A DNA stretch of 64,000 bases from Actinospineispora acaciae DSM 45401 (GTDB lineage Bacteria > Actinomycetota > Actinomycetes > Mycobacteriales > Pseudonocardiaceae), in the NCBI RefSeq assembly GCF_000620785.1, contig NZ_JIAI01000002.1:62001-126000 (forward strand). Reading direction: 5' to 3'. The notes under the pieces are model-generated. The model was not told the origin of the DNA. It worked only from the letters and a program-made list of their open reading frames with translations, and ran no database searches. Shown one piece after another: positions 2,135 to 40,617 of this stretch. Both the position numbers and the translations under genes were made by a program. Within the stretch, counting starts at the first letter, position 1. Every line of letters begins with the position of its first letter.

Positions 2135-3919
2135 ATGCCCACGCTCACCGGCGGCCAGATCGTCGCCCAGACCCTGCGCAACTACGGCGTCGAGTACGTG
2201 GCGGGCATCCCCGGCCACGGCATCTGGTCGCTCACCGACGCGTTCCTGGACGACCCCGGCCGCATCCCGTTCGTCCAGACCTACCACGAGCAGAGCGCCG
2301 TGCACCTGGCCGACGGCTACTACCGCGCCACCGGCCGCCCGATGGCCGCCGTGACCTCGATCGGCGCCGGCGCCAGCAACACCGTGATCGGCATGGGCAC
2401 CGCGTTCACCGACTCCACCAGCGTGCTGGTGATCACCGGCGGGCCGCCCACGCACATGCGCGGGCACGGCCTGCTCCAGGAGCTGGACAGATACACCGCC
2501 AACGACTTCCCCAAGGTCGCCGAGGCGGTCACCAAGCGGCACTGGGTGGCCACCCGCGTGGAGGAGCTGCCGTTCATCCTGCACCGCTCGTTCAACTCGA
2601 TGCTCACCGGACGCCCCGGCCCGGTGCACGTCGAGGTGCCGATGGACGTGCAGGCCGAGAGCGCCGACGTCGAGCTGCACGACCTGGCCCGAAGGGTTCC
2701 GGTCGGCCGCCCGCACCCCGACCCGGTCGCGATCGAGCGCGCCGCCGGCGTGCTGCGCGCCGCGACCCGTCCGGTGATCGTGGTCGGCGGCGGGGCGATC
2801 AGCTCGGACGCCGCCGGCGCGGTGCTCGCGCTGGCCGAGCGCTGGTCGGTCCCGGTGGTCACCACCTGGAACGGCAAGGGCGGGTTCCCGGAGGACCACC
2901 CGCTGTTCGCCGGCAGCGTCGGCCAGACCGGCACCGTCGTCGGCAACCGCATCGCCGCGTCGGCCGACGTCGTGGTGGCCGTCGGCTGCCGGTTCACCGA
3001 CTGGTCGTCGTCCAGTTACGCGCGGGGCGTCAGCTTCTCCATCCCGCCCGCGAAGCTGATCCACATCGACGTCGACCCGCACGAGATCGGCAAGAACTAC
3101 CCGGCCGAGGTCGGCATCGTGGCCGACGCCCAGCGCGCGGTCACCGCCCTGACCGACGCCCTCTCGGGAACCCCGCACCGCGCCGACTACCTCGCCGAGC
3201 TGCAAGAGCTGCGCCAGCAATGGGAGGACACCCTGGCCGAGCGCCGCGACAGCCAGCGGTTCCCGTTCACCTCGCAGCGACCGCTCGGCGCGCTGCGCGC
3301 CGTCCTGCCCCGCGACGCGATCATCGTGGCCGGCTCCGGCAACACCCAGGGTGCGGTCAAGCAGACCTTCCCGGTCTACGAGCCGCGCACCCACCTGACC
3401 TCCGGCGGGTTCTCCAGCATGGGCTGGGCGGTGCCGGCCGCCGTGGGCGCCAAGCTCGGCCGGCCGGACCGGGTGGTGGCCTGCGTGCTCGGCGACGGCG
3501 ACTTCCTGATGACCGCCCAGGAGATCGCGCTGGCCGTCACCGCCGACGCCCCCGTGGTGTTCGTGGTGCAGAACAACGCCGGCTACATGTCCATCCGGGG
3601 CGGGCAGCGCAAGCAGACCTCCCGGCACATCGGCACCGAGTTCAACCGCCCGGACGGCACCCCGTACAGCCCCGACTTCGCCGCCCTCGGGGCCGCGTTC
3701 GGCATCGAGTCGTGGAAGGTCTCCGAGCCCGGCTCGCTGGAGCCGACGCTGCGCAAGGCCGTCGAGTCCGGCGCGCCCGCGCTGGTCGAGGTGCCCACCG
3801 ACCGCGACGCCGCCGGCCCCTGGGTCCCCGGCTGGTGGGACTTCCCGGTGCCGGCCTACATCCGCGACGAACGCCAGGACGAGTACCACCGCATCCGCGC
3901 CACCGAACAGCACCTCTGA
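2135..3919 (+). CDS. Thiamine diphosphate-dependent enzyme, acetolactate synthase/IolD-like
   Basis: A 594-residue ThDP enzyme of the acetolactate synthase superfamily. Domain order is an N-terminal pyrimidine-binding domain with the conserved Glu about residue 52 (YHEQSAVHLADGYYRATG), a central Rossmann-like domain (VIVVGGGAISSDAAGA), and a C-terminal diphosphate-binding domain with GDGDFLM near residue 453 and NN near 480, the metal/ThDP motif. The segment GTEFNRPDG...DFAALGAAFG resembles IolD (the trihydroxycyclohexanedione hydrolase of inositol catabolism) more than anabolic IlvB. The length also fits IolD-like or sulfoacetaldehyde acetyltransferase-like proteins. The reaction cannot be fixed by reading; C-C cleavage of a diketone or 2-oxo acid produced by the neighbours is an inference. 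AAGGAG at 2122-2127 precedes the ATG. The next gene starts 12 bp later. Confidence 0.85.
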   Translation: MPTLTGGQIVAQTLRNYGVEYVAGIPGHGIWSLTDAFLDDPGRIPFVQTYHEQSAVHLADGYYRATGRPMAAVTSIGAGASNTVIGMGTAFTDSTSVLVITGGPPTHMRGHGLLQELDRYTANDFPKVAEAVTKRHWVATRVEELPFILHRSFNSMLTGRPGPVHVEVPMDVQAESADVELHDLARRVPVGRPHPDPVAIERAAGVLRAATRPVIVVGGGAISSDAAGAVLALAERWSVPVVTTWNGKGGFPEDHPLFAGSVGQTGTVVGNRIAASADVVVAVGCRFTDWSSSSYARGVSFSIPPAKLIHIDVDPHEIGKNYPAEVGIVADAQRAVTALTDALSGTPHRADYLAELQELRQQWEDTLAERRDSQRFPFTSQRPLGALRAVLPRDAIIVAGSGNTQGAVKQTFPVYEPRTHLTSGGFSSMGWAVPAAVGAKLGRPDRVVACVLGDGDFLMTAQEIALAVTADAPVVFVVQNNAGYMSIRGGQRKQTSRHIGTEFNRPDGTPYSPDFAALGAAFGIESWKVSEPGSLEPTLRKAVESGAPALVEVPTDRDAAGPWVPGWWDFPVPAYIRDERQDEYHRIRATEQHL

Positions 3920-20908: not shown

Positions 20909-21541
20909 TCAGGCCATACCCGCCGGGGCCATCCGCTGCTGGATGGCGTGCTCGACCAGCCCGATCAGGGTCTGCTTCGTGGACTCGCGGTCGCGGGCGT
21001 CGCAGGCGACGATCGGCACCGTCGGGTTGATCGTCATGGCCTCGCGCACGTCCTCCGACCGGTGCGTCAGCCGGCCGTCGAACCGGTTCAGCGCCACGAT
21101 GTAGGGCAGGCCCCGGTCCTCGAAGAAGTCCACGGCGGCGAACGAGTCGGCCAGCCGGCGGGTGTCCACCAGCACGACCGCGCCGATCGCGCCCCGGGCC
21201 AGGTCGTCCCACATGAACCAGAACCGGTGCTGGCCGGGGGTGCCGAACAGGTAGAGGATCAGGTCGGCGTCCAGCGACACCCGGCCGAAGTCCATCGCGA
21301 CGGTGGTCGTCCGCTTGTCCGGGATCTGGCTCAGGTCGTCGAACCCGGCGCTGGCCTCGGTCATGACGGCCTCGGTCCGCAGCGGGACGATCTCCGAGAC
21401 CGAGCCCACGAACGTCGTCTTCCCGACGCCGAACCCACCGGCCAGGACGATCTTGGCGGACGTCGTCGCGGCGACCGCGCCTGGCTGCCGGTCATATCTC
21501 GCGCTGTCATATCTGGCGCTGTCATATTTCGCGGAGTCCAC
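20909..21541 (-). CDS. Conservon GTP-binding protein (CvnD-like)
   Basis: A 210-residue small GTPase, last gene of the conservon. The G1 loop GGFGVGKTTFVGSVSEI, the G2-region Thr segment KRTTTVAMDFGRV, the G3 replacement LFGTPGQHRFWFMWDDL and the G4-like ALNRFDG are all visible. CvnD proteins bind GTP and are thought to relay a signal with the other Cvn proteins at the membrane, much like eukaryotic GPCR modules. The N-terminus is odd: residues 2-18 consist of repeating K/R-Y-D-S-A units encoded by 15-bp tandem repeats, so the mature domain effectively starts near residue 27 (TSAKIVLAGGFG). The GTG at 21541 lies 20 bp inside the CvnC-like gene. Confidence 0.9.
   Translation of the reverse strand: MDSAKYDSARYDSARYDRQPGAVAATTSAKIVLAGGFGVGKTTFVGSVSEIVPLRTEAVMTEASAGFDDLSQIPDKRTTTVAMDFGRVSLDADLILYLFGTPGQHRFWFMWDDLARGAIGAVVLVDTRRLADSFAAVDFFEDRGLPYIVALNRFDGRLTHRSEDVREAMTINPTVPIVACDARDRESTKQTLIGLVEHAIQQRMAPAGMA
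21491..21535 (-). repeat. Three 15-bp tandem repeats inside the cvnD start region
   Basis: Three units start GTCATAT on the plus strand: 21491-21505, 21506-21520 and 21521-21535. They differ at one to a few bases and encode the repeating pentapeptide at the CvnD N-terminus. The last unit also covers the end of the CvnC gene, so a copy-number change would alter both the gene overlap and the length of the CvnD tail. Confidence 0.8.
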
Positions 21542-21950
21542 TGAGCACCCTTTCCATCCATGCGAGATCGGGAATGCCGCCGGACGCGGCGATCGAGCGG
21601 TGCACCGTGACGAGGCCCTGCTCGGCCATCTCGACGAGCAGGCCCCTGGTGCTGCCCCACGGCAGCCGCAGCACGGATGCCACCTCGGCCACCGATCGGG
21701 GCCGCCGGCACAGTTCGACGACCGACCGCTGTTCGAGCCCCAGCCAGGCGACGTGGTCGAGGCCGTGCGCGCTGGTGGAGACCAGCGTCTCGACCTCCAG
21801 CCGAGCCGGCCACTCCGGGGCCGACGCAGCCTCGGCCAGGTGGTGGCGGCCGGACGGCTTGTCGGACCAGGTGTCCTCCAGCCGGTAGCCGTCCAACGCG
21901 TCCACGAAGGTCGGATGGTGCGGCTCGTGTTGCCGGTTCGTCCGGGTCAT
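21522..21950 (-). CDS. Conservon DUF742 protein (CvnC-like)
   Basis: A 142-residue DUF742 protein, third gene of the conservon. The C-terminal two thirds form a winged-helix-like domain: LEQRSVVELCRRPRSVAEVASVLRLPWGSTRGLLVEMAEQGLVTVHR. The N-terminal part, including DGYRLEDTWSDKPSGRHHLAEAA, is more variable; DUF742 proteins usually carry an RPYxLTxGRT block there, which is only partly kept. The role in the module is not established. Its start is 16 bp downstream of the CvnB-like stop and its end overlaps the CvnD-like start, which fits a single transcript. Confidence 0.85.
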   Translation of the reverse strand: MTRTNRQHEPHHPTFVDALDGYRLEDTWSDKPSGRHHLAEAASAPEWPARLEVETLVSTSAHGLDHVAWLGLEQRSVVELCRRPRSVAEVASVLRLPWGSTRGLLVEMAEQGLVTVHRSIAASGGIPDLAWMERVLSGLREI

Positions 21951-21966
21951 CTGTTCGGGGCGGGAC

Positions 21967-22362
21967 CTACCGGACCGGGTGCAGCGGCGCGGCGGTGAGC
22001 ACCTGGCCGGCCCGGTCCACGAGCATGGTCATCTCGTACGCCACCAGGCCGAGGTCGGCGTTCGGCGAGGCCAGCACGGTCAGGCAGGAGCCGTCGCTGA
22101 TCGACATGAGCAGCAGCAGGCCGTGCTCCATCTCCACGATGGTCTGGATGACCCCGCCCGCCTCGAAGCACCGCGCGGCGCCCTCGGTCAGGCTGACCAG
22201 GCCGGACGTGACCGCCGCGAGCTGGTCGGCGTGGTCTCGGGGCAGCCGTGGCGTGGCGGTCAGCAGCAGGCCGTCCGTGGAGACCACGATGGCGTGCGCG
22301 ACACCGGGCACCTGGTCGGCGAAGTTGGCGAGCAGCCAGCCGAACTCGCTCTGATCGTTCAA
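21967..22362 (-). CDS. Conservon roadblock/LC7 protein (CvnB-like)
   Basis: A 131-residue roadblock/LC7-domain protein, second gene of the conservon. It starts at TTG (22362), chosen because GGAGGAG lies seven bases upstream and the family N-terminus NDQSEFGWLLANFADQVPGVAHAIVVSTDGLLL follows at once. Further family marks are DHADQLAAVTSGLVSLTEGAARCF and the final strand pair MEHGLLLLMSISDGSCLTVLA. Roadblock proteins such as MglB act as regulators of small GTPases, so the CvnD-like protein is the expected partner. The start overlaps the kinase-like gene stop by four bases, so translation is coupled. Confidence 0.9.
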   Translation of the reverse strand: MNDQSEFGWLLANFADQVPGVAHAIVVSTDGLLLTATPRLPRDHADQLAAVTSGLVSLTEGAARCFEAGGVIQTIVEMEHGLLLLMSISDGSCLTVLASPNADLGLVAYEMTMLVDRAGQVLTAAPLHPVR

Positions 22363-24932
22363 CCTTGCTCTCCTCCGGGACGGGACGGGACGTTCAGGGG
22401 CGTGGCGCGCCAGGTACCGGCCCGGCCCTGGCGCAACCCCTCCTGGTAGCTGGCGAGCAGGCCCCGGGTGCGCTCCGGGCGGCGGGCCGGGACCTCCGGG
22501 GGCTGGACGGCTCCGTTGTCGCCGCCGCCGCGCGGGATGAGCTGCGCCCGGGGCGTCCGCTTGGGCAGGCCGGACGCGGTGAGCTGGGTTTCCGCCGCCT
22601 CCGGCATCGGGCGCAGCGGGTCCGACGCGGTGGCCGACGCGGTGGCCGACGTGGTGGCTGCGGCCTCCGACCGCTCCGTGAACAGCTCGCGGCCGCCGCC
22701 GGACCGGAACCAGGCGGACTCCATCCGCGTGTAGATCGGCGTCTCTTCGGGGTCCGGCGGGCGCGGGGCTGGCTCGGACGGGAAGGGCGGCGGACGCTCG
22801 TCGGTGAGCGGGTCGGCCCCGTTCACCGCGGCAGTCACCGGAGTCACCGGAGTCACCGGGCTCGCCGGGGCGGGCGGCGGCTTCGAGGGGGTGCTCGGGC
22901 GCTGCGCGGGCTCCGACCATGCCGGGCCGCGGCGCGCGGCGGGTGCCTCGCCCCCTCCCCGGTCGGTGGCCGTCGGGGCGGTGACCAGGTCGGGGAGGAC
23001 GTGGACGAACGCCGTGATGCCGGCCCGCGCGCCGAGGGACCGCTCGCTGGCGGCCAGCCGCACCTTGATCCGATGCCGCGCGGCGAGCCGGCCGACCACG
23101 AACAGGCCCATCCGCCGCGAGGTGGACACGTCCAGCTCGGCGGTCCCGGACAGGCGGCGGTTGGCGGCGCTCAGCTCGTTCGCGGTCATGCCGACGCCCT
23201 CGTCGGCGATCTCGACCAGCACCGAGCCGTCGCTGGTGCGGTTGCTGTCGAGCACCACCTGGGTGTCCGGCGGGGAGAAGTTGGTGGCGTTGTCCAGCAG
23301 CTCGGCGACCAGGTGCATCAGGTCCTTCGCGGCGCGGCCCAGGATCAGCGCGTCCGGCGAGGTCCGCACGACCACCCGCTTGTACTGCTCGATCTCGGAC
23401 ACCGCGGCGCGCAGCACGTCGACGACCGGGACCGTCTGGTTCGGCCGGTTGGTGACCTCGCTGCCGGCCAGGATCAGCAGGTTCTCGCTGTTGCGCCGCA
23501 TCCGGGTGGCGAGGTGGTCGAGCTTGAACAGGTTGTCGAGCTGTTCGGCGTCCTGCTCGTTGCGCTCCAGCCGTTCGATCAGCCGCAGCTGGCGTTCGAC
23601 CAGGCCCTGGCTGCGCCGCGAGAGGTTGACGAACATGCCGCTGACGCTGGTCTGCAGGGTGGCCTGCTCGGCGGCCAGCCGCACGGCCTGCCCGTGCACC
23701 GCGTCGAACGCCCGCGCCACCTGCCCGATCTCCTCGGTGCTGGTCACCGGGACGGGCTTGACGGTGACGGCGGGCGTGCGGCCCTCCCGCATGGCGCGCA
23801 CCGCGTTCGGCAGCCGGCGGTTGGCCACCTCCATGGCGGTGCGGCGCAGCACCCGCAGCGGGGTGAGCATCGAGCGGCCGACCCCGTACACGACGCCGGC
23901 GGTGGCCAGCAGGCCGAGCAGCAGCAGCACCGAGTCCAGCCCGGCGGCGCCCCGCGCCCGCTCCTGCCAGGCGACGGCGATCGAGCCGAGCTCCGCCCGC
24001 ACGCCGGCCTCGGTGCCGCGCAGGTCGGCCAGCACGGCGCCGTTCGCCGCGTCCCACTGGCCTCGATCGACGGCCTTGTCGACGCCGCGCGCGCCCGCCC
24101 GTCCCAGCGCGGCCTGCTTGAGCTGCTGGCGCGGCGCGGTGGCGTCGCTCTCCGCCCAGTGCAGCAGCTTGCGCCGCCCGTCGGCCATCCCGACCCAGAG
24201 CTGGCCGGCGGCGGTGGCCAGCCGGGTGTCGGCGGCGCGCACGGTGTCGGCGTCCGGCGGCGTCAGCTCGCCCCGGATGGTGGCCGCCGCGATCACCACC
24301 TGCTGCACCGCGACCTGCTCGGCCGCGGCGGCCAGGGTGGTCAGGTCGAGCGGCAGGCCGGCGGCGGCGGGGACGTATTCTTCTCCACCGCCACCACTCA
24401 GGCGGCGGTCCAGGGCCGCCTCGAACCTGAGCAGCGCGCCGATCAGTCCGGAGTACCGCGCGATCACCGAGGACGCTTCGGCCGCCGGCGCGTCGGCCAC
24501 CTGCTCGCGCAGCGCGGCCAGCTGGGTCAGCTCGTCGATGACCTGGGCGTAGGCGGCCCTCGGCCCGTCGCCCAGGGCGGTCGCGTCCCCGACCGCGCTC
24601 GCCGCCTCGGCGGACCGCTTGTCGGTGGCCGCGAACGCGCCCTGTGGCGGTGGAGAATCGTCGTCCCGTTTGCCCGCGACGTAGACGGCCGCGTGGTACC
24701 GCTCGCGTTGCAGTTCAGCGACGAGCGTCGTTACAGAGTCACGTACAGTGAGATACCGGGCCTGGCCGTCCAGCGCCGTCGCGTCGTCGATCCGGTCGCT
24801 GACCCGCAGCGCGCCCAACGTCATCGCCAGCACGATCGGCACTGTCAGCACCGCCGCCAGCTTGACCGGAAGGCTCCAGTTCCCCGGCAGCAGCCACGCC
24901 CTGCCCGGCGGCGGGTCCTCCGGCGCGCTCAT
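22359..24932 (-). CDS. Conservon sensor histidine kinase-like protein (CvnA-like)
   Basis: An 857-residue membrane sensor. Helix 1 (LPVKLAAVLTVPIVLAMTLGAL) and helix 2 (VLLLLGLLATAGVVYGVG, about 310-330) bracket an extracellular nitrate-sensing (NIT)-like domain rich in helices. A HAMP-like linker follows, then a dimerisation helix with LDNLFKLDHLATRMRRNSENLL and an HATPase domain with LLDNATNFSPPDTQV (N box) and EIADEGVGM (G1 box). About 200 C-terminal residues are Pro/Ala-rich and disordered, ending near LASYQEGLRQGR. The last part, common in CvnA proteins, may bind partners. It heads the operon A-B-C-D. No cytochrome P450 (cvnE) gene follows, so this is a four-gene conservon. Confidence 0.9.
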   Translation of the reverse strand: MSAPEDPPPGRAWLLPGNWSLPVKLAAVLTVPIVLAMTLGALRVSDRIDDATALDGQARYLTVRDSVTTLVAELQRERYHAAVYVAGKRDDDSPPPQGAFAATDKRSAEAASAVGDATALGDGPRAAYAQVIDELTQLAALREQVADAPAAEASSVIARYSGLIGALLRFEAALDRRLSGGGGEEYVPAAAGLPLDLTTLAAAAEQVAVQQVVIAAATIRGELTPPDADTVRAADTRLATAAGQLWVGMADGRRKLLHWAESDATAPRQQLKQAALGRAGARGVDKAVDRGQWDAANGAVLADLRGTEAGVRAELGSIAVAWQERARGAAGLDSVLLLLGLLATAGVVYGVGRSMLTPLRVLRRTAMEVANRRLPNAVRAMREGRTPAVTVKPVPVTSTEEIGQVARAFDAVHGQAVRLAAEQATLQTSVSGMFVNLSRRSQGLVERQLRLIERLERNEQDAEQLDNLFKLDHLATRMRRNSENLLILAGSEVTNRPNQTVPVVDVLRAAVSEIEQYKRVVVRTSPDALILGRAAKDLMHLVAELLDNATNFSPPDTQVVLDSNRTSDGSVLVEIADEGVGMTANELSAANRRLSGTAELDVSTSRRMGLFVVGRLAARHRIKVRLAASERSLGARAGITAFVHVLPDLVTAPTATDRGGGEAPAARRGPAWSEPAQRPSTPSKPPPAPASPVTPVTPVTAAVNGADPLTDERPPPFPSEPAPRPPDPEETPIYTRMESAWFRSGGGRELFTERSEAAATTSATASATASDPLRPMPEAAETQLTASGLPKRTPRAQLIPRGGGDNGAVQPPEVPARRPERTRGLLASYQEGLRQGRAGTWRATPLNVPSRPGGEQG

Positions 24933-24966
24933 AGGCCGGTTGCCCCCCGTCCGCGTCCGCGCCCGG

Positions 24967-25344
24967 TCATTCCTCCGGTCGCGCGGACACCAGCCCTTGC
25001 AGCTCCCCCTCGGTGTAGCCGATGGCCAGCAGGTAGTCGGCGTATGCGAACCGTCTCGCCCGGACCGTCCCGGCGGGCCGGGGGGCGACGACGTACGAGC
25101 GGAACTCGCGCACCGCGGCGACGTAGGCGCGGATGGTCGACGGGGTGCGACCGGTCTCGCGCAGGTGGCATACGTAGCGCTCGATGTCGCCCGAATGCCA
25201 GTTCCATGGGGAGTCTCCAGCGAATCGTTGAAATCGGCGCACGGCGGAAACCCGCCCGCTGATCGTGGTCGGGCTCAGCCGCCGTGCATGCAAATGGCTC
25301 CGCCAGTCCCGGAGTGCCGGCGCGAGGCCGGCGTCGTCCGTCAT
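24967..25344 (-). CDS. Orphan tyrosine-recombinase N-terminal (core-binding) domain protein
   Basis: A 125-residue protein that looks like only the SAM-like core-binding domain of a phage-type integrase. LAPALRDWRSHLHARRLSPTTISGRVSAVRRFQRFAG gives helices 1-2, DIERYVCHLRETGRTPSTIRAYVAAVREFRSYV gives helices 3-4, and the chain ends soon after LQGLVSARPEE. The catalytic domain with R-H-R-Y is absent, and no remnant of it was found between its end (24967) and the conservon start (24932). Its ATG overlaps the stop of the DUF485 gene (ATGA), so it is translationally coupled to the acetate-type transporter genes. It may be a DNA-binding protein derived from a recombinase, or a remnant. The coding quality and coupling argue for a working gene. 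Confidence 0.65.
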   Translation of the reverse strand: MTDDAGLAPALRDWRSHLHARRLSPTTISGRVSAVRRFQRFAGDSPWNWHSGDIERYVCHLRETGRTPSTIRAYVAAVREFRSYVVAPRPAGTVRARRFAYADYLLAIGYTEGELQGLVSARPEE

Positions 25345-25724
25345 CGGCTGCCCACTGAGTGGAAGAACTCGGGTTCGTCATCGTCTCCGCGTTGGACCTG
25401 TTCGACCATGCGGCGCACGTTGGCGGCCTCCGGGTCGATTACCTGGTTGGCGTACCGCACGTAGAAGGTGGCCAGGGCGAGGGTGCTGAGAATCTGCAGG
25501 ATGCCGGCCACCAGCGCGACCGTGATGTTTCCGAGCAGCCTGAACGCCATGAACCCCGGCGTGTAGTAGGCGAGCCCGACGTACGCGGCGTACCAGGTGA
25601 TGAACAACATCCCGAACGGGAGGACGAACCGGCGTCGCCTGCGTTTCAGTTGCAGAAACGCGGCGCTCTTGTATACCTGCTGATAGGCGATCGCGTCTGG
25701 GACGGGTCGTTTTTCGGTGGCCAT
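25341..25724 (-). CDS. DUF485 membrane protein (YjcH-like)
   Basis: A 127-residue DUF485 protein. After a charged N-terminus with the typical YQQVYKSAAFLQLKRRRRRFVLPFG, two transmembrane helices follow (GMLFITWYAAYVGLAYY and NITVALVAGILQILSTLALATFYV), then ANQVIDPEAANVR and a short acidic tail. DUF485 proteins accompany ActP-type acetate/solute:sodium symporters and are thought to be accessory subunits. Usually the DUF485 gene comes before actP; here it follows, 20 bp downstream. Its stop overlaps the start of the recombinase-like gene. Confidence 0.88.
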   Translation of the reverse strand: MATEKRPVPDAIAYQQVYKSAAFLQLKRRRRRFVLPFGMLFITWYAAYVGLAYYTPGFMAFRLLGNITVALVAGILQILSTLALATFYVRYANQVIDPEAANVRRMVEQVQRGDDDEPEFFHSVGSR

Positions 25725-25744: not shown

Positions 25745-27607
25745 TTAGTCGACGTCGGCCCGGGAGGACTCACGCGCCACGCGGCGGGCAATGGCCTCCA
25801 CCTCGGCGACGGTGAACACCGATTCGGTGGACAGCCGGGCGGGCACCGCGACGGGGGCGTCTCGGGATGCGCGCGGCGGGAGGCTCCGGCGGGCGGCGAC
25901 CACGGCCGAGGCGCCGGTCCGTTCCGGACCCGTCGGCACCGGCGGCGCCGGCCGGTCGGGGGCGTCGTAGCCGTACTCGTCCGTGTCGTCGTCATCGTCG
26001 GTGATGGCCGGGGCGGCTTCGTTACCGGCGCCGGTGAGCGCCCGGACCTGCATCTCGGCGTGCCGTTCCCGGCTGGCCCGGTCGGGGATCAGAATGGAGA
26101 CGACATAACCGAGCACGAACGACAGCGGAATGGACACGACGCCCGGGTTGCTCAACGGGAAGTACTGGAAGTCGTGGTCCTTGAGCATCGACGTCTTCTC
26201 GCCGGAGACCGCCGGAGAGAGCGCGATCAGCGTCACCGAGGAGATGAGTCCGGCGTAGATGCTGGCCAGCGCGCCCGCCGTGGAGAACCCCTTCCAGAAC
26301 AGCGAGTAGAGGATCGTCGGCAGGTTCGCCGAAGCGGCCACCGCGAAGGTCAGCGAGACCATGAAGAGAATGTTCTGGTCCTTGGCGAGGATGCCCCCGG
26401 CGATTCCTACCGCGCCGATCCCCACCGCGCCGAGGCGGGCGACCATGATTTCCTTGCGCGGCTCGGCATTGCCGTGCTTGATGATGCTCGCGTAAATGTC
26501 GTGGGCGAACGACGCGGACGCGGCGATCGTCAGCCCGGCGACCACCGCGAGAATCGTCGCGAACGCCACCGCGGAGACGATGCCCAGCAGGATCTCGCCG
26601 CCCAGCTGGTAGGCCAGCAGCGGCGTCGCCGCGTTCGACTTGCCCGGTGCGTTGGCCATCGCGGCCGGGTCGACCATGCCCCCGGCCGCGTACCCGACCA
26701 CCATCGCCGCGGTGAAGAACCCGCCGATGAGCCAGATCGCCCAGGAGATCGAGCGGCGCGCCTGCCGCGCGTCCGGAACCGTGTAGTACCGCATCAGCAC
26801 GTGCGGCAGCGCGGCGGTGCCCATCAGGAACGCCAGCGCCTGGGAGAAGAAGTCCAGCGTGGAGGTCGGGCTCGCGCCGTACTGCAGCCCGGGGATGAGG
26901 ATCGCCTCGCCGTGCGGGTTCCGCTCGGTGGCGGCGCCCAGGAGCGAGCTGAGGTTGAAGCCCTCCCGGCCCAGCACCCAGGTCATCAGCACCAGCGTGG
27001 TGACCATCAGCAGCCCGGCCTTGATGATCTGCACCCAGGTGGTGCCGCGCATTCCGCCGAGCAGCACATAAACGGTCATGAGGGCGCCGACACCGATGAT
27101 CGCCAGCGCCTGGCCGTACTCGCTGGTGATACCCAGCAACAACGCGACCAGCACGCCAGCCCCGCCGATCTGGGCGAAGAGGTAGGACAGCACGACGGTG
27201 ATCGTGGACAGCGCCGCCGCCACCCGGATCGGGCGCTCGCGCAGACGCAGGATCAGTACGTCGCCCATGGTGAAACGGCCGACGTTGCGGATTGCCTCGG
27301 CGACCAGCAGCGCGGCCAGCCAGCCCACCAGCGCGCCGATACAGTACAGAAATCCGTCGTAGCCGTAGAAGGCGATCGCGCCCGAGATGCCCAGGATGGC
27401 CGCCGCCGAGAGAAAGTCACCGGCCAGGGCGATTCCGTTCTGCGCGCCGGTGAACGCGCGGCCGGCGGAGTAGTAGTCCGCGGCCGAACGATTGCTCTTG
27501 CTCGCTTGCCGGACCACCACCAGAGTGACCAACGCGAAAACCAAGAAGATGCTGATGTTCACCGTCGGTGAGCCGACTCCGGCCGCCAGCGGTGTCGCTG
27601 GATTCAT
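25745..27607 (-). CDS. Sodium/solute symporter, ActP-like (acetate/monocarboxylate)
   Basis: A 620-residue sodium:solute symporter. ActP-like features are SAADYYSAGRAFTGAQNGIALAGDFLSAAAILGISG, GRFTMGDVLILRLRERPIR, LGGMRGTTWVQIIKAGLL, and ALPHVLMRYYTVPDARQARRS, with about 13 helices to residue 510. ActP takes up acetate and other short monocarboxylates with a cation. The last 110 residues or so form a non-conserved cytoplasmic tail, with a run of five Asp (after AITDD) and Pro/Arg-rich sequence ending in a short amphipathic segment; such a tail is not found in E. coli ActP. The ATG at 27607 has GGGGGAC upstream. It is divergent from a MarR regulator gene across 586 bp. Confidence 0.88.
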   Translation of the reverse strand: MNPATPLAAGVGSPTVNISIFLVFALVTLVVVRQASKSNRSAADYYSAGRAFTGAQNGIALAGDFLSAAAILGISGAIAFYGYDGFLYCIGALVGWLAALLVAEAIRNVGRFTMGDVLILRLRERPIRVAAALSTITVVLSYLFAQIGGAGVLVALLLGITSEYGQALAIIGVGALMTVYVLLGGMRGTTWVQIIKAGLLMVTTLVLMTWVLGREGFNLSSLLGAATERNPHGEAILIPGLQYGASPTSTLDFFSQALAFLMGTAALPHVLMRYYTVPDARQARRSISWAIWLIGGFFTAAMVVGYAAGGMVDPAAMANAPGKSNAATPLLAYQLGGEILLGIVSAVAFATILAVVAGLTIAASASFAHDIYASIIKHGNAEPRKEIMVARLGAVGIGAVGIAGGILAKDQNILFMVSLTFAVAASANLPTILYSLFWKGFSTAGALASIYAGLISSVTLIALSPAVSGEKTSMLKDHDFQYFPLSNPGVVSIPLSFVLGYVVSILIPDRASRERHAEMQVRALTGAGNEAAPAITDDDDDTDEYGYDAPDRPAPPVPTGPERTGASAVVAARRSLPPRASRDAPVAVPARLSTESVFTVAEVEAIARRVARESSRADVD

Positions 27608-28193
27608 GTCAGGTCCCCCTGCTGATCTTGTGCGGCCACGAAGCGGCCGGCCGCCCGCGAGGCCGTGCCACCAAGCTTGATCTCCGACGAGCTGTTTGGC
27701 GCTCATCTTCATTGCGTGACCGGCCGGCTCAACGACCCGCTTTGCGGTTGAGTGACGGCGGTCGATTCGCGCCGAGAAACTAATCCGAACGCTTATCAAT
27801 GCCGTTTCGCCTGGTGGTTACCGGTAACGCTGTGCACAACATATCCACATGACTTCACCCTTGTGGGTGGCGTTCACTCTTACGTTCGGCCGATATAGCG
27901 GTCGAATCTCACGGTAGCGGTCGGGTGCGACGCGTGTTGTCACTCGTACGTGGCGTAACGTCCCCTGTACGTGGTCCGGTAGAAAAACCAGCCACGCTCA
28001 CACTCGCTCCCCGGGAGAGGTCATGGCATGCGACGTGCGGCGTCGGGTTTCTCGGCGAGATGGATCTTGTTCCGAACTCCATCTCCGCCTGTCGGACGAC
28101 GGTTTGGTGGATCGACGACACGGTAAGGCGCGGAGTCGGGTATCCGCGCCGAGTCCGGTCCGTCCGGCCAATGGCTAGAAAGGTGCGTCGAAC
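27608..28193. promoter_or_regulatory. Divergent regulatory region actP / marR
   Basis: The 586 bp between the symporter and MarR genes hold no convincing gene. Two direct copies of GTACGTGG (27946-27953 and 27967-27974) lie 21 bp apart, which is two helical turns, so they face the same side of the DNA. The part at 27780-27900 is AT-richer than its surroundings and probably contains promoters. A 91-codon frame at 27925-28200 has no ribosome site or family resemblance. Confidence 0.4.
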
Positions 28194-28685
28194 GTGGTAA
28201 GTGATAACGCGGTCAGCGATTGCGACTCGTCCGCTCCGAGCGGGTCCGAGCCGGAACGCATGCCGCTGGTCGCCGAGCTCTACATCGCGCTGTACACGGC
28301 GTCACGCGCCATGAACGGCTCCTATCGCCCGCTGCTGGCCTCCCTCGGGCTGACCCACACCCAGTACCTGGTGATGCTGGTGCTCTGGGAGCGGCGGGTG
28401 GTCACCGTCGGCGAGCTCGGAGACCGGCTGCACCTCAGCTCGGGAACCGTGTCGCCGCTGCTCGCGCGCCTCGAGCACGCCGGGCTGATCAGCCGGCGCC
28501 GCCGGCTGGACGACGTGCGCGCCGTGGAGGTGTTCGCGACGCAGAAGGGGATGCGGCTGCGGGTCGCGGCCGACGAGGTGCCCGCCGTGATAGCGCGGGC
28601 GGCCGGGCTGACGCCGACCGAGATCGCCGAGCTCCGCGACGCCCTGCAGGTCATGACGATGCGGCTCAGCGTGGCGGAACTGTAG
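28194..28685 (+). CDS. MarR-family transcriptional regulator (OhrR-like)
   Basis: A 163-residue winged-helix regulator. After a serine-rich N-terminal stretch of about 22 residues, the fold reads PLVAELYIALYTASRAMNGSYRPLLASLGLTHTQYLVMLVLWERR, then the recognition part VTVGELGDRLHLSSGTVSPLLARLEHAGLISRRRRLDDVRAVEVF, with the family DxR wing. It resembles OhrR-type regulators in the LTxTQYLVMLVLWE block, but no redox-active N-terminal cysteine lies at the expected site; the only Cys is at about position 10, in the extension. The GTG at 28194 has AAAGGTG upstream. It could control the divergent symporter operon, the esterase downstream, or both. Confidence 0.85.
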   Translation: MVSDNAVSDCDSSAPSGSEPERMPLVAELYIALYTASRAMNGSYRPLLASLGLTHTQYLVMLVLWERRVVTVGELGDRLHLSSGTVSPLLARLEHAGLISRRRRLDDVRAVEVFATQKGMRLRVAADEVPAVIARAAGLTPTEIAELRDALQVMTMRLSVAEL

Positions 28686-39670: not shown

Positions 39671-40542
39671 TCTCCCGCCGAACTAGCGTATGTGCGGCGG
39701 TCGCGGGATTCGCCGCAGCGTGCGGCCGAATGGCAGACACGCCAGACCGATCGCACCTACGCGCAGTAATAGGAACGCGCCGAGGGCGACGGCCAACCCC
39801 AAGATCATCACCGCTCGGCCCGGTCCACGCTCTTTGCAACTGTGTCGCTCTGGTAGATACCAACTAGGCTGGGCCCAGCAGAAGTAGCGAGTCTGGACAA
39901 TCGCGATGCCTTCAGTATGTTGAGCTCGATGAACGAGCTCGCCTTACGGGCGATCAGTATGTGACCGCGATTGCAATTTGTCTGAGAACCTCACAAGATC
40001 GATCGGCCGGCCGTGGCACCTTTCGAAACGCCTACCGCTTCCGCACGAGCATGAGCGGAGCGCATCTGCTCCTCCGAAAACAGGCAGACCGGAGTCGTTA
40101 ACCAGATCCAATTCAAGTTCTGAGAGTGACGTGCTCGATCCATCTGGTAGCAGGGAAACTATGTCTGCGGGTGCTGTCTTCGAGTTCGGCGAGTTTGAGC
40201 CATTCGTCGAGCACGTGGCCTAACGACACGGCGGAGGACGGACCGCGTGCCTTCTCGGCCTCGGCGACGAGGCGGTTGCGGGCCTTACAACGTGTCGCCT
40301 CGTCGGGGCCGGGGACGGGTCTCTCGGAGGTAGAACAGGCTTTCCGGTTTGCGAGGGCTGGGCTGGCGTGGACGCGGGGCGGAGCGACTTGCCACAGGTT
40401 TTCGATGTCGCGTTGAGGGCGCTTGTCGGCTGGCCGAGCGGCTGCCGTGGGCATGAGTTGAAGGGGTAGCTCAGGTCCACGAGCATGCCCAGAGATCGTT
40501 TGCAAAGTAGCGATCAGTACCATCTGCGCTGGTCACGCTGTG
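39671..40542. other. Gene-poor region beside tRNA
   Basis: This 870-bp stretch lies between the RidA-like gene and the tRNA and is visibly less GC-rich than the rest of the window. No intact gene is convincing. It includes the decayed integrase-like frame at 40113-40523. Its composition and place at the 3' side of a tRNA suggest leftover DNA from an integrated element. Confidence 0.55.
40113..40523 (-). pseudogene. Probable remnant of a tRNA-integrating tyrosine recombinase gene
   Basis: The minus-strand frame contains a segment that reads like the middle of an actinophage/ICE integrase: GPDEATRCKARNRLVAEAEKARG, then SSAVSLGHVLDEWLKLAELEDSTRRH. In complete integrases a lysine/arginine-rich linker, a TLGELLDxWL-type helix and an xxxSTRRxY block follow in this order. 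The frame stops soon after, and no catalytic domain (R...HxxR...Y) was seen in the neighbouring 400 bp in any frame. It ends 20 bp from the 3' end of the tRNA gene, the normal place for such an integrase. The N-terminal 50 residues show no resemblance. The assignment rests on one short region. Confidence 0.45.
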
Positions 40543-40617
40543 TGGGGCAGGTGGGACTCGAACCCACGACCTGACGGATTATGAGTCCGCTGCTCTGACC
40601 GGCTGAGCTACTGCCCC
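40543..40617 (-). tRNA. tRNA with CAT anticodon (Met or Ile2)
   Basis: A 75-nt cloverleaf. The acceptor is GGGGCAG paired with CTGCCCC and discriminator A. The D arm is GCTC/GAGC, the anticodon arm GCGGA-CTCATAA-TCCGT with anticodon CAT (plus-strand 40581-40583), and the T arm GTGGG-TTCGAGT-CCCAC. CCA is not encoded. The U33/A37/A38 loop fits either elongator methionine or lysidine-modified isoleucine-2 tRNA. It is not an initiator: there is no run of three G-C pairs (GGG/CCC) in the anticodon stem. Which one it is cannot be settled by eye. Confidence 0.95.

Follow-up and report, generated by a model that had tools for sequence, protein, structure and literature searches.

The window, a stretch of 64,000 nucleotides from Actinospineispora acaciae DSM 45401 (contig NZ_JIAI01000002.1, positions 62,001 to 126,000), contains a minus-strand operon in the order symporter, DUF485 protein, a short gene with the core-binding (CB) domain of tyrosine recombinases (CB gene) and histidine kinase (Table 1). 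The symporter and DUF485 genes are separated by 20 nt, the DUF485 stop and the CB gene start overlap in ATGA, as already given in the preliminary description of the locus, and the histidine kinase starts 34 nt past the CB gene stop codon. The symporter ORF is readable from a TTG at 27799, with the ATG at 27607 as the likely start. Its product scored 732.9 bits against the MctC equivalog NF058657 (NCBIfam; cut-off 670) and was assigned to this type. ActP was rejected as an assignment, at 400.1 bits and a cut-off of 1099.25 (NCBIfam); an ActP-like symporter had been proposed to head the operon, of which the position was retained and the type was corrected.

Table 1 Features of the locus (coordinates of the window; P. 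eucalypti, Pseudonocardia eucalypti DSM 45351)
Feature	Position	Strand	Remarks
NIT-domain sensor histidine kinase	22359..24932	(-)	directly downstream of the CB gene, likewise in P. eucalypti
CB-only recombinase-derived protein, 125 aa	24967..25344	(-)	CB domain residues 5-89, tail 90-125
DUF485 membrane protein, 127-aa ORF	25341..25724	(-)	Pfam DUF485, E 1.2e-25
MctC-type monocarboxylate/sodium symporter (SSF family)	25745..27607	(-)	SSF, E 1e-76; NCBIfam
Intergenic region separating the symporter from the MarR gene	27658..28025	(.)	conserved in P. eucalypti
MarR-family gene, divergent from the symporter	28194..28685	(+)	

Histidine kinase, Roadblock/LC7, DUF742 and ATP/GTP-binding genes are consecutive at 20909-24932 (-), a gene row that corresponds to an actinobacterial conservon. 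A tRNA-Met gene (cat anticodon; 40542-40617, minus strand) was the sole tRNA gene found in the window, and PADLOC returned no match for the three proteins submitted. The best DUF485 match per genome, viewed with about 1.5 kb on each side, was located upstream of its symporter in 28 of 28 other loci of the genus, and neither the CB gene nor the NIT kinase was detected within the same distance. DUF485 proteins of the type found here (E ≤ 1e-32) were confined to the own genome among 297 sampled family genomes, a sample that possibly excludes P. eucalypti. The divergent MarR gene is a candidate regulator of the operon and a more obvious one than the CB protein.

The 125-residue protein had been described as the N-terminal, DNA-binding half of a tyrosine recombinase, and this was borne out by two Pfam matches above cut-off, Phage_int_SAM_4 (PF13495; E 9.6e-9, 36 bits, cut-off 27) and Phage_int_SAM_1 (PF02899; E 3.9e-8, 33.9 bits, cut-off 22.3), which define a core-binding (SAM-like) domain, and by a score of 76 bits for residues 5-89 against a profile of full-length actinobacterial recombinases. 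The protein stops at residue 125, before the catalytic domain with its R, K, H/R, H/W and Y residues. No Pfam catalytic domain (PF00589) was found in the CB protein or on the window's contig, in agreement with the earlier remark that no catalytic half exists nearby. Elsewhere in the genome, PF00589 was matched at 8 places (E ≤ 0.001), every one in a frame of 301-488 aa; a lone catalytic half was not found in the genome, where a full-length relative used as query detected only the CB stretch (E ≤ 0.01). PF13495 was matched at 23 places in 62 genomes of the genus (E ≤ 1e-5). Only two of these are in frames below 200 aa, namely the CB gene and a gene matched up to a point 86 bases short of a contig end, so that a frame restricted to the CB domain is more than would be expected by chance.

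Relatives were gathered from both strands (41 distinct full-length sequences), and one distant Xer-type sequence (L022) was left out of the charge and profile comparisons and retained in the tree. The CB protein scored 84.6 bits against the CB profile, compared with a minimum of 82.5 and a mean of 114.4 among full-length relatives (n = 37). The net charge of its CB part is +9; the 40 relatives range from -2 to +6, and none is as high. Residues 90-125 gave marginal scores against profiles of the recombinase region that follows the CB domain (the same score was reached by 0.9-3.3% of shuffles), and when the 62 genus genomes were searched with this tail, two further genomes were matched weakly (E 0.29 and E 0.47) in addition to the loci already known here and in P. 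eucalypti. PHROGs gave no match to the CB protein.

The structure of the CB protein, which had been suggested for prediction, was modelled with AlphaFold2 from a 19-row alignment. The model has a mean pLDDT of 85.4, with block means of 93-97 over residues 11-80, and displays four CB helices followed by two less certain helices in the tail. VIA-align ranked the CB domains of XerA (5hxy) and integron integrase (2a3v) best, both with Z 12.7 over model residues 6-88, a range of Z (below about 13) that can be common among helical bundles. Foldseek gave no match in the PDB at E ≤ 0.001, and the fold assignment draws on sequence and VIA-align. According to the model, the product of the CB gene probably folds as a four-helix CB domain.

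Searches of 62 genomes of the genus and of 390 of the family detected the same set of genes, which was to be looked for elsewhere, in P. eucalypti DSM 45351 and, apart from the own genome, in no other. Among the matches listed for the order (397 genomes sampled) and the class (394 genomes sampled), there was no further copy of the locus. A first scan of named genomes gave no match to the CB protein, and a second matched P. eucalypti and, weakly, a single MAG of the Bacteroidota. In P. eucalypti, the gene order and the 3′ end of the CB gene are as here, with the histidine kinase next downstream. Protein identities are 79% for the symporter, 63% for DUF485, 55% for the kinase and 74% for MarR, and dS of the neighbouring symporter, DUF485 and kinase genes amounts to 0.57-0.78. 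The CB gene itself is broken there: near its start there is an out-of-frame gap of 38 nt (41 nt less when counted from the DUF485-coupled ATG), and a net 66 nt have been lost in frame in mid-gene. Tail and stop codon align with the copy described here, which places the truncation before the species split. As P. eucalypti broke the CB gene and kept transporter, DUF485, kinase and promoter region, the CB gene is not needed for persistence of the locus. In both species, the DNA of the CB gene also contains a second open frame (window 24929-25381, minus strand; P. eucalypti locus L094:5979-6287); the deletion in P. eucalypti moves the DUF485-coupled ATG into this frame, and the codon-position differences favour the CB frame.

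The region 27658..28025 aligned to P. eucalypti with a local score of 132, compared with 35 for the best of 300 mononucleotide shuffles (0/300 as high). With the arms at most 60 apart, inverted repeats in the promoter region were limited to two of 8 nt. A near-palindrome located between symporter and MarR gene, CATGACCTCTCCCGGGGAGCGA (minus strand, 28004-28025), shares 20 of 22 bases with P. eucalypti and is a candidate operator.

For the CB gene, 68 codons retained in P. eucalypti gave dN 0.135 and dS 0.339 (ratio 0.40, Fisher p 0.027), and the 65 safely aligned codons, with the three before the gap dropped, gave a dN/dS of 0.37 (p 0.020), in a sample of two sequences, one of them broken, that was compared over the segments still aligning. 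The ratio is raised because the dS of the CB gene is unusually low for the locus. Synonymous divergence is low at 25150-25260 (pS 0.273); among 277 windows across the neighbouring genes, 10 have values this low. Differences at codon positions 1, 2 and 3 numbered 10, 6 and 17 (17/33 at the third position, one-sided p 0.023), or 9, 5 and 16 on the safely aligned codons (16/30, p 0.019, one-sided). Of 22 CB residues for which 85% or more of 20 relatives agree, 17 are kept, and four of the five changed ones are located in the first helix; this count, like alignments A2 and A3, was made with relatives read on one strand only. At 0.285-0.34 substitutions per site, 11-22% of the runs of a neutral simulation restricted to substitutions kept the frame free of stops; at 0.1-0.2, the share was 21-49%. 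From these sequence comparisons, some constraint in the history of the gene pair is likely, and the signs of use of the CB protein are moderate.

Relatives of the CB protein are mostly full-length recombinases. The family search yielded 42 places, 40 of which are other genes, 35 in frames of at least 347 aa and 5 in frames below 260 aa. Inspection of three of the five short frames identified two full-length genes with one frameshift each and one CB-only piece. The former (L101 and L102, in genomes G632 and G633) are family recombinases in which one frameshift has moved the catalytic half to the next frame. The latter (L103, G537; 2189-2782, minus strand) is an independent CB-only piece from another genus of the family, whose match to full-length relatives ends after the CB domain. 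The CB domain was also matched by 107 plasmid records, including a P. autotrophica plasmid with the same match coordinates as in genus genome G067; phage records gave no match at 1e-5, and viral contigs gave none. In a tree with full-length recombinases, the two CB fragments grouped together as a clade (99/98), the long stem of which measures 1.04 changes per column. This clade is positioned near the midpoint root with poor support (84/13), and the tree is thus silent on descent from within the full-length group.

That a full-length integrase was freshly truncated in this strain is very improbable. Frameshifted and truncated members of the family do occur in other genomes, as just described; however, P. 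eucalypti has the same 3′ end and tail at the neighbouring-gene divergence given above, and a full-length integrase at a homologous locus, which the preliminary description had named as the mark of such an event, was not found among the 390 family genomes. It is likewise hard to credit that the CB protein is one part of a split recombinase that is completed in trans by a catalytic half encoded elsewhere. The protein retains the CB fold and the genome offers eight other catalytic-domain places, but all eight belong to long frames, none is a lone half or lies on the window's contig, and the full-length query found nothing beyond the CB stretch. A chance open frame in G+C-rich DNA that yields no protein is supported by the second frame open in both species across the same DNA, and is still scarcely believable in view of the Pfam matches above cut-off, the score against the family profile and the concentration of differences at third positions of the CB frame.

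Once truncated, the CB domain may also have been exapted into a small, basic protein of regulatory or nucleoid type that is made with DUF485 and the symporter and was secondarily lost in P. eucalypti, a possible but doubtful course of events. Consistent with it are the dN/dS of 0.37-0.40 together with the third-position bias, the largely kept conserved residues with changes mainly in the first helix, the net charge unmatched in relatives, the confident predicted fold and, in MrpR (see below), a precedent for a recombinase fold turned repressor. Against it, the CB gene is broken in the sole other species with the locus, where the promoter region is still conserved; only two taxa are involved, the promoter region holds just the two 8-nt inverted repeats, the divergent MarR gene is the obvious regulator, and MrpR retains both domains where the CB protein has one. 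At high G+C, drift towards arginine may account for part of the basic charge, and the frame could plausibly have survived under neutrality, as it did in 11-22% of simulated copies. The regulatory role linked to transport that was put forward originally hence found no direct support, since P. eucalypti broke the gene and kept the rest. The narrower proposal, a CB domain freed of its catalytic half and recruited as a stand-alone basic DNA-binding protein of the monocarboxylate transporter operon, with the catalytic domain deleted and not just inactivated, is rather unlikely.

The CB gene is, with fair probability, an old tyrosine recombinase relic, trimmed at both ends, still translatable and at most encoding a minor DNA-binding protein. 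An old relic is the most economical reading of the locus, and a regulator is an unlikely one. The source would be a tyrosine recombinase of the kind now present on actinobacterial plasmids and chromosomes. In the common ancestor with P. eucalypti, a CB-only piece trimmed at both ends would have been lodged between the DUF485 and histidine kinase genes and then passed down vertically. In the genome described here, the frame would have stayed intact and be translated by coupling to DUF485, and its product could bind DNA weakly and would not cut it. The gene would be under weak constraint at most and dispensable for the transporter locus, and would already have been broken in P. eucalypti. The signs of use speak against this reading, namely the dN/dS, the third-position bias, the kept conserved residues, the net charge, the clean ATGA coupling to DUF485 and a CB profile score above that of the lowest full-length relative, if well below the mean. 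If it is a relic, the locus clearly exemplifies a fragment from a mobile-element gene that sits in a host operon, with decay speeds differing between two species.

The closest known systems are actinobacterial tyrosine recombinases of about 370-430 aa, whose CB domains are about 31-47% identical in the better matches and share the PW.W and STIR.Y motifs; unlike the CB protein, they possess the catalytic domain and have partner genes, and their N-terminus is longer. In three plasmids inspected (Streptomyces sp. NBC_01217, Prescottella equi p1-WH99 and S. mirabilis pI; L091, L092 and L093), the recombinase is followed by a small HTH gene and then by a larger one whose annotation reads integrase or Fis-family regulator. 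The CB domains of XerA (5hxy; rmsd 1.8 over 83 residues) and integron integrase (2a3v; rmsd 1.5 over 82 residues) resemble the CB model in fold, but each is part of a full enzyme, at identities of 22% and 13%, respectively. Literature searches in one open collection returned no report of a stand-alone CB protein. According to PMC10516654, MrpR (YopR) of the Bacillus subtilis prophage SPbeta has a recombinase-like fold with a CB domain, has no recombinase function and is a DNA-binding repressor. Its structure (PDB 8bj6, titled YopR) was aligned to the CB model with Z 6.7 and rmsd 3.0 over 79 residues (VIA-align). MrpR retains the catalytic-fold domain at its C-terminus and has been proven to act as a repressor, whereas the protein described here has the CB fold only, not the combination with a C-terminal recombinase fold devoid of catalysis, and its function is putative. 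As the second domain is absent and DNA binding is putative here, the CB protein was not classed with MrpR. It would, if at all, act like MrpR by binding DNA without recombining it; the conversion of a recombinase fold into a repressor is already known from MrpR, in which both domains persist.
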